Origin: Elusimicrobiota bacterium
Lineage (GTDB): Bacteria; Elusimicrobiota; Elusimicrobia; Elusimicrobiales; UBA9959
Direction of reading: 5' to 3'
Assembly: GCA_029267355.1 (NCBI GenBank)
Contig: JAJUJA010000010.1
Location: 1-33,857, forward strand
DNA: 33,857 nucleotides
Both the position numbers and the translations under genes were made by a program. The notes below the pieces were generated by a model. The model was not told the DNA's origin. It made no database searches and saw only the letters and a program-made list of their open reading frames with translations. Below are positions 32,285 to 33,857 of the stretch, piece after piece; within the stretch, counting starts at the first letter, position 1, and each line of letters starts with the position of its first letter.

Positions 32285-32998
32285 TTATTTCTTGGAAAAG
32301 GAAACAAGCTTCAATGTCTCCTGCTTGTCTTCGGCATTGACGCTTTCAAGAACCAGGCCTACATTGGGAGCATAATATCTTTCAGCTACGCCGGCGTCTC
32401 CTCCGCCTATCTTTGTGATTATCTTAAGGCAGTTTTCAAAGCTTCCGGCAGGTACAGATGCCTTTGCTGAGAAAGTTGAGACTCTGTTTTTATCGGCATT
32501 TTCAGTCCATTCCTTGCCTTTGAAAAGAGGGAAAGGGATTTCAACTCTGGCTCCGGCCAGTATGGTGTCTGAAACTATAAGGCCGTTATTGGCTATCTTT
32601 ATTGTAAAGTCATAAGTCTTCTGACCGTTTCTGTTGTAATAGGTTATCGAAGCTGCGGTAAGAGAATCCTTTTCAGAATAGCCCTTATACTCTACGACGA
32701 CTTTTTTTGCGCCCTGAAATTCGCTTGAGGTATATTCGTATTCATAGACGGCCTTTACGGATATGGGCAGATAAAGATAGGGATCTGCGGTTTCCGATGA
32801 ATTTTTGGAAGGATCCGCAGAAAAACCCGCGGGAGAAGGTATTTCAAACCCTTTGTAATTTTCAAGGGATATGAAAGGAGCCATCTGTCCGTCAGTGGCT
32901 GAAAAGGTCTTTCTTATGGCATTTTCGGCGAAATCCTGAGCTGAGACCGAAAAGGCCAGGGATACTGTTATTGATAACAACTTAGCAGCTTTAAGCAT
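32285..32998 (-). CDS. secreted TapB/DUF3108-like protein
   Basis: 237 aa from MLKAAKLLSITVSLAFSVSAQDF, a signal peptide. The mature part is beta-rich; VPAGSFENCLKIITKIGGG and AERYYAPNVGLVLESVN resemble the tail of TapB-like/DUF3108 beta-sandwich proteins. Function is unknown; it is probably periplasmic. GGAGG lies 8 nt before ATG; upstream Met codons in frame are not preferred. The transcript seems to carry a long structured leader and starts from a promoter that overlaps that of htrA. Confidence 0.75.
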   Translation of the reverse strand: MLKAAKLLSITVSLAFSVSAQDFAENAIRKTFSATDGQMAPFISLENYKGFEIPSPAGFSADPSKNSSETADPYLYLPISVKAVYEYEYTSSEFQGAKKVVVEYKGYSEKDSLTAASITYYNRNGQKTYDFTIKIANNGLIVSDTILAGARVEIPFPLFKGKEWTENADKNRVSTFSAKASVPAGSFENCLKIITKIGGGDAGVAERYYAPNVGLVLESVNAEDKQETLKLVSFSKK

Positions 32999-33010
32999 AC
33001 TTCTTTGCCT

Positions 33011-33037
33011 CCGAAATATAATTTTAGTTATATTTCC
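33011..33037 (-). promoter_or_regulatory. hairpin next to the ribosome-binding site of the TapB-like gene
   Basis: GAAATATAA (33035-33027) and TTATATTTC (33021-33013) form a 9-bp stem with a 5-nt loop on the minus strand. The G bases just after the stem begin the GGAGG site, so folding could hinder initiation. Confidence 0.45.
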
Positions 33038-33049
33038 GATACTTTGTGC

Positions 33050-33200
33050 TAAGTTCCGAAAGGGTGGGTGAAACTTAACGCGCCCCGCCGACCGCAACTA
33101 ATTTAGCGGGGACATCATCTGACAGATAGCTTTTGGACTTTAAGGATATCCGCCAGACTTGTAAGATACGGAAACTTCTTAAGGGATCAACCCTTAAGAA
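33050..33200 (-). ncRNA. structured 5' leader of the TapB-like gene, unidentified
   Basis: About 150 nt of unusually GC-patchy, non-coding sequence upstream of the TapB-like gene. Inverted repeats: TTCTTAAGGG/CCCTTAAGAA (33176-33200, 10 bp, 5-nt loop), CCCCGC/GCGGGG (33083-33111) and TAAGTT/AACTTA (33050-33077). A longer pairing AAGTTCCG (33051-33058) with CGGAAACTT (33169-33177) would close a larger domain. It matched no riboswitch, tmRNA, SRP, RNase P or 6S consensus that I can recall with confidence. Confidence 0.4.
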
Positions 33201-33230
33201 ATGTTACCAAAAAATACCGGTTCTTGTCAA
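33201..33230 (-). promoter_or_regulatory. promoter of the TapB-like gene
   Basis: Minus strand TTGACA (33230-33225), an 18-nt spacer, then TAACAT (33206-33201). The start would be near 33194, inside the 10-bp inverted repeat 33176-33200, which is therefore also an operator candidate. Confidence 0.5.
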
Positions 33231-33233
33231 GAA
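33221..33233. promoter_or_regulatory. 13-bp palindrome shared by two divergent -35 boxes
   Basis: TTCTTGTCAAGAA, a perfect 6-1-6 inverted repeat, holds TTGTCA for htrA and TTGACA for the TapB-like gene, offset by one base. A protein bound here would cover both -35 boxes. Confidence 0.55.
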
Positions 33234-33253
33234 AAAATGCAAAAAAGTATAAT
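33224..33253 (+). promoter_or_regulatory. htrA promoter
   Basis: TTGTCA (33224-33229), an 18-nt spacer, TATAAT (33248-33253). The start near 33260 gives a 5' leader of about 17 nt with GGAGAAGGAGG. Confidence 0.75.
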
Positions 33254-33276
33254 TTTTCTATGGAGAAGGAGGTTTT

Positions 33277-33857
33277 ATGAAGATATTTTTCCTTATAATT
33301 GCGGCGGCTTCCTCCCTTAAAGCCTCTCTGCCGCGCGAGCTTCAGGAACAATTTAATGCCATAGCTGCCGCGGCTTCCAAGGCCGTAGTCAATGTAAAAA
33401 TAGAGAAAGAAAAGGAGGCCAGAGTTGTAGAGCCGGAGTTTTTTTTCGGCTATGTCATACCAGATGAAAGGATATATAAGTACAAAGTAGCCGGCGCAGG
33501 TTCCGGGGTAATAGTTACAGATAACGGCTATGTGCTGACCAATTATCATGTTGTGGAAGAAAGCGATGAGATAAGAATTAAAGTCAAGACAGATTCCGGC
33601 GAAAAAACTTACAAGGCGGACTATATCGGCGGAGATGCGACCATGGATTTGGCGGTATTGAAGATAAAATCCGGCGAAAAGTTTTCTTTTCTGACATTTT
33701 CCAGAGAGCTGCCGAAAGCGGGGGATATAGTGTTTGCTGCAGGATATCCATTCGGCTATTCTCAGACCATTACTCAGGGCATAATTTCCGGCCTCGACGC
33801 CTCTCTTAAGGTGGAGGGGCGGTCTTATCGTTCTTTGATTCAAACTGATGCAGCCAT
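33277..33857 (+). CDS. htrA: HtrA/DegP-type serine protease (3' end outside window)
   Basis: The visible 193 residues start with a signal peptide MKIFFLIIAAASSLKA, directing it to the periplasm. The trypsin-like core shows GSGVIVTDNGYVLTNYHVVE with catalytic His91, and ATMDLAVLKI with catalytic Asp124. FAAGYPFGYSQTITQGIISGL precedes the GNSGG Ser site, which lies beyond the window together with any PDZ domains. HtrA degrades or refolds misfolded envelope proteins. GGAGAAGGAGG gives a strong SD. Its divergent promoter overlaps that of the TapB-like gene. Confidence 0.95.
   Translation, partial: MKIFFLIIAAASSLKASLPRELQEQFNAIAAAASKAVVNVKIEKEKEARVVEPEFFFGYVIPDERIYKYKVAGAGSGVIVTDNGYVLTNYHVVEESDEIRIKVKTDSGEKTYKADYIGGDATMDLAVLKIKSGEKFSFLTFSRELPKAGDIVFAAGYPFGYSQTITQGIISGLDASLKVEGRSYRSLIQTDAA

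Follow-up and report, generated by a model that had tools for sequence, protein, structure and literature searches.

What do the two inverted repeats between an htrA/degP-like gene and the gene opposite it do: are they control sites in the DNA, or do they mark something carried in the transcript? The region lies near the end of the window, by which we mean the whole 33,857-nucleotide stretch of Elusimicrobiota DNA that was analysed. An initial annotation had proposed that a palindrome supplies overlapping -35 elements to two divergent promoters, that a second inverted repeat covers the predicted minus-strand start, and that TTCTT/AAGAA half-sites in both repeats hint at one regulator of envelope-stress genes. 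We assign the following features to the locus, taking the ATG at 32998, and not the TTG of the longest frame, as the start of the minus-strand gene.

33221-33233, both strands: 13-bp palindrome TTCTTGTCAAGAA, containing both -35 hexamers
33224-33253, plus strand: htrA promoter, TTGTCA (33224-33229), 18-nt spacer, TATAAT (33248-33253); 11/12
33201-33230, minus strand: leader-RNA promoter, TTGACA (33230-33225), 18-nt spacer, TAACAT (33206-33201), TG-extended -10; 10/12
33176-33200, minus strand: P0, predicted optional 5' hairpin, the second inverted repeat of the initial annotation (repeat search, folding, relatives)
33035-33173, minus strand: leader RNA core of about 140 nt, four-way junction of P1-P4; 129.2 bits to covariance model R1
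33171-33163 with 33044-33036, minus strand: P1, a helix of the core
33013-33036, minus strand: P5 hairpin (GAAATATAA/TTATATTTC), its foot directly before the Shine-Dalgarno sequence
33008-33012, minus strand: Shine-Dalgarno GGAGG, from the sequence
32285-32998, minus strand: type A gene, 237 aa, ATG at 32998, N-terminal signal peptide by eye
33277-33857, plus strand: htrA/degP-like serine protease, truncated where the contig ends (193 aa present)

The proposed promoter arrangement was confirmed at 33221-33233, where the two -35 hexamers within the palindrome, TTGTCA for htrA and TTGACA for the gene opposite, are offset by one base. Three promoter-like sites were found at the locus against 0.6 expected. 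Among 1000 dinucleotide shuffles of 33001-33276, one produced a divergent pair with a common -35 in which each promoter scored 10/12 or better; the coincidence is partly built in, since TTGACA followed by A gives TTGTCA (5/6) when read from the opposite strand. G001 (86% identical) retains the two promoters, with one outer half-site base lost, and G008 keeps the htrA promoter as TTGTCA-17-TATAAT. Exactly 3 of the 62 related loci, those of G000, G001 and G008 from two genera, have a common -35, and htrA is divergent in all three, which bears out the overlapping promoters. Three further loci (G016, G018 and G019) also have a divergent htrA, and there the two -35 hexamers are adjacent and not shared; in this neighbour count of 6/62, five loci had fewer than 400 bases upstream.

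A bidirectional promoter consists of two promoters that point away from each other and overlap in their core elements, and this is what was found at the 3/62 loci. In E. coli such promoters likewise have a pseudo-symmetric core at which RNA polymerase is accommodated in only one of two orientations (PMC12825309; PMC10268837). They share the -10 element and exclude simultaneous binding (PMC12825309), whereas in the window it is the -35 that is shared, with the two -10 elements outside it. By analogy with that exclusion, it is plausible that both promoters of the window cannot be used at once. The two-way promoter is a separate layer, seen only at loci with htrA as neighbour, where htrA and the type A gene may compete for RNA polymerase.

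The second repeat is real, with arms of 10 + 10 bp (TTCTTAAGGG/CCCTTAAGAA at 33176-33185/33191-33200), and a start near 33194, at the usual distance from the -10, falls in its 5' arm as had been proposed. TTCTT/AAGAA is also present in both repeats of the window, and together with the divergent htrA at six loci this would fit a pair of DNA operators through which one envelope-stress regulator acts on htrA and the opposite gene. The shared -35 does recur next to htrA in the relatives G001 and G008, but the half-sites were altered in G001 and absent in G003. The 13-mer has a single occurrence in the source genome, the link to envelope stress comes solely from htrA, which adjoins only 6 of 62 copies of the RNA described below, and it is this RNA, not the repeats, that is conserved. 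We therefore find the operator model scarcely credible. In folding and in relatives, the second repeat behaves as a predicted RNA hairpin, P0, an optional 5' part of a larger leader RNA. The window, G001, G023, G035 and G045 all have a hairpin in the stretch that separates the -10 from the conserved RNA, with differing stem sequences and energies of -5.7 to -10 kcal/mol. Since the predicted start near 33194 lies inside the 5' arm, the outer part of the repeat may still have a role as DNA; with such a start the window transcript would retain just the inner P0, as a shortened GGG/CCC stem.

The minus-strand leader of the window folds far below its shuffles (z -5.3). In G001 the leader differs little over the stretch between about 33175 and the ATG, where changes in P2 come in pairs, whereas the promoter region drifts. 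The consensus RNA reads ..CCGUAuCUUACAAG (P2) ..GAUGUcC (P3) gCGCGUUAAGUUuC.CCCACC..GgAACUUAGCACAAAGUAUCGG.., in which P1 consists of CCG/CGG and CUU/AAG with a UAU internal loop between them, the P2 loop of about 19 nt is conserved, P3 is variable and the P4 loop is C-rich (CCCACC). A hand-drawn structure was paired in 98.2% of pair cells across 47 aligned copies, and 19 of its 33 pairs showed double changes (75 cells); none of 500 shuffles reached any of these measures, and slid controls paired in 31-47%. The alignment and model R1 (A4) used 47 of 52 rows, leaving out the near-duplicates L010, L022, L023, L048 and L060; an alignment A2 held 28 of 30 loci, without L030 (incomplete) and L032 (a paralog without the RNA). 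When 62 copies were aligned by the covariance model, which fits the alignment to the structure, 98.0% of cells were paired and 22/33 pairs had double changes. Structure-free measures agreed: the top seven scores of APC-corrected mutual information over the 62 copies were all pairs of the structure, and RNAalifold, unaided, returned 32 pairs, 19 of them with compensatory changes. The same mutual information gave no consistent further helix when pseudoknots were sought, and an extension of P2 (columns 21-23 with 51-53) pairs in some copies only. The coding test took in 60 of the 62 copies. The mRNA leader thus contains a conserved, structured, aptamer-like domain, as riboswitches do.

Homologous genes were gathered by protein search of 59 genomes of the window's own family, and the RNA was found upstream of most. 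The covariance model recovered 62 copies in 47 of these 59 genomes, all of one Elusimicrobiota family. Searches of the order (47/149 genomes with the RNA) and of the phylum (47/340) placed every match within this family, and a filtered covariance search of the phylum outside it gave 0/281 genomes; these searches scored, under strict filters, no more than the 22 or 9 best candidates in each genome and could have overlooked distant forms. A genome collection scanned for the exact pattern yielded 44 stretches, 36 after eight chance matches (L034, L035, L038, L052, L053, L055, L061 and L066) were set aside by eye, and every remaining stretch with a phylum in its title was from Elusimicrobia or Elusimicrobiota. 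Two of the chance matches, L034 and L055 (Bacteroidetes MedPE-SWsnd-G2), belong to a repeat family of their own, with three near-identical intergenic repeats in a single genome. Viral contigs gave no pattern match.

At Rfam 15 gathering thresholds the window contained two tRNAs only and 10 relatives contained nothing, and permissive searches with one copy each returned nothing sensible (best RefA5, 25.5 bits against 91 needed). Among the titles and abstracts listed by literature searches on riboswitches and structured or noncoding RNAs of Elusimicrobia or Elusimicrobiota, none concerned such a leader, and PMC11109978 makes no mention of Elusimicrob, signal peptide, secreted protein or barstar. 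Judged by these searches of Rfam and the literature, the leader RNA is a previously undescribed, new family.

All 62 copies precede, in the same direction, one of three gene types: type A, the window type (31 copies), type B, barstar-like (15), and type C (16). A signal peptide was seen by eye at the start of all three types, and in the genomes searched the RNA was found before these exported-protein genes and nowhere else. A free-standing small RNA that lies upstream of a gene by chance would have its own promoter and a compact fold, as this RNA does, but the constancy of the following gene in 62/62 copies, and a search of 32900-33500 that found no terminator-like site in the window, make it highly improbable. 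Mapped on a tree of the RNA copies, gene type changed 7 times, whereas none of 500 shuffles gave fewer than 20 changes, which indicates a long-standing association of RNA and gene types.

The type A protein had no Pfam match above threshold, only a weak DUF3108-like one (E 0.043), and prediction of its structure gave a poor model (mean pLDDT 46). The RNA was not detected at a paralog of this gene (G000:C33:8927-9406, minus strand), and most genomes of the family have a second copy of this kind. Barstar is a cytoplasmic inhibitor. Type B genes (L040, L056, L045 and 12 further loci) encode Barstar-family proteins that are apparently exported: one member matched PF01337 (Barstar) over residues 88-174 (E 1e-15), and the type adds to the known family a signal peptide, seen by eye, and the leader RNA. 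One type B copy reaches the contig end after 41 codons. For type C, no sequence match was found in Pfam, NCBIfam or the PDB, and a PDB fold search gave none with E below 0.47; the C-terminal model of L049:3421-4047 (minus strand) and its relatives was good (mean pLDDT 75.5, mostly above 90 from residue 70).

Profiles of the first 75 residues aligned types A and C over 61 columns (98.9%, E 2.6e-17), from which we conclude that these two types have a common head and are otherwise different. Type B had 34 aligned columns in common with C (96.7%) and 35 with A (about 90%), in both cases mostly the signal peptide; the C profile also matched one B gene over its first 59 positions. The RNA is present at 16 of 19 type C genes; of the others, the gene of G039 has lost its start to a contig end, and the two of G020 align with the profile only beyond its first part, from position 18 or 27. 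RNA and N-terminus together look like one cassette with exchanged C-terminal domains in types A and C. A broader version is put forward tentatively: a new riboswitch-like class, restricted to one Elusimicrobiota family, and a shared export N-terminus would form a cassette in which one RNA signal governs exported proteins with exchanged C-terminal domains of the window type, barstar and type C.

The 5' end of the leader varies with gene type. The distance from -10 to P1 is 9-37 nt, being short in 20 of 31 type A copies and long in all 16 type C and 11 of 15 type B copies. A promoter score was obtained for 62/62 copies, and TG precedes the chosen -10 in 54 of them. In many copies of types B and C (e.g. 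L114 and L094) the extension carries a recurring GTAAG or GTCAG between -10 and P1; the core has an invariant CUUAC that could pair with the GTAAG form but not with GTCAG.

At its 3' end the RNA approaches the ribosome site. The start codon lies 31-40 nt past the core in 59/62 copies, with 49, 74 and 102 nt in the remaining three. A P5 hairpin below -3 kcal/mol was found in 56 of the 58 copies folded (58/62 taken in) and mostly ends directly at the Shine-Dalgarno sequence. It is lost in G007 and G008, and this loss, together with the three longer spacings, indicates that a fixed geometry is not essential. In the minimum-energy fold of the window GUUUCC pairs with the Shine-Dalgarno sequence. 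Anti-Shine-Dalgarno pairing by the P1 5' strand was considered and rejected (xTCCG in 44/62 copies, A replacing U in 15/62), and a second conformation thus finds no support in these copies. Early codons of the window (GCTAAGTT, 32977-32984) are complementary to the P4 3' strand (AACTTAGC, 33045-33052), a pairing that is perfect in G000 and similar in about ten relatives. The mean energy of this duplex was -8.68, against -7.93 (sd 0.26) for synonymous shuffles, a value reached by 0/100 of them; the genes are related and not independent, and the pairing is therefore kept only as an idea.

The leader resembles translational riboswitches and other structured bacterial 5' leaders in its covarying core, conserved junction bases, short distance to the Shine-Dalgarno sequence and several genes per leader; it differs from the known ones in having no Rfam match, exported-protein targets and no conserved alternative pairing among those sought. 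It may be a new riboswitch class, in which the junction and P2 loop would bind a small molecule or ion and formation of P1 would gate the ribosome site. The aptamer-like pattern of variable helices with invariant junction and loop bases, the placing of P5 against the Shine-Dalgarno sequence and the several gene types under one RNA speak for this. Against it, the targets are neither enzymes nor transporters but exported proteins whose kind is unknown or non-metabolic, and the 62 copies gave no conserved pairings that exclude one another. With regard to an expression platform, the analysis showed P5 beside the Shine-Dalgarno sequence, an anti-Shine-Dalgarno pairing that 15/62 copies do not keep and a P4-codon pairing only weakly above synonymous shuffles. 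We regard this reading as possible and hold it loosely.

The fold might instead serve a constitutive leader that senses nothing and protects the message, boosts its translation or directs it to the membrane. Only signal-peptide genes follow the RNA, the promoters are strong and TG-extended, the Shine-Dalgarno sequence is of consensus form and the N-terminal export segment common to the proteins of types A and C accompanies the RNA; a constitutive role in mRNA stability, high expression or localisation fits the same data. But it is rare for the junction and loop bases of constitutive leaders to stay the same from genus to genus, and the roughly 29 columns invariant in the 47 copies would be unusual for one. 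This role appears rather unlikely to us.

We consider it likely that the minus-strand transcript opens with a conserved, structured, cis-acting leader RNA of a new family that controls translation of an exported-protein message. This reading is based on the covarying P1-P4 junction with its invariant junction and loop bases, the promoter just upstream, P5 touching the Shine-Dalgarno sequence, the nearly constant spacing of 31-40 nt to the start codon and the restriction, among the genomes searched, to three types of exported-protein genes, all of them computed. The RNA is probably a switch or control element. It would act in cis at translation initiation: the core would bind a partner, whether small molecule, protein or RNA, and binding would be relayed through P1 and P5 to the ribosome site.

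The locus illustrates how a structured RNA can go unnoticed just downstream of what is first seen as a promoter feature. Exchange of domains behind a constant RNA and signal peptide would be an unusual route to new targets of a regulatory RNA. If the RNA senses something, it would unite exported proteins in an RNA regulon, in a phylum that has been little studied, and 62 natural variants of it are ready at hand.
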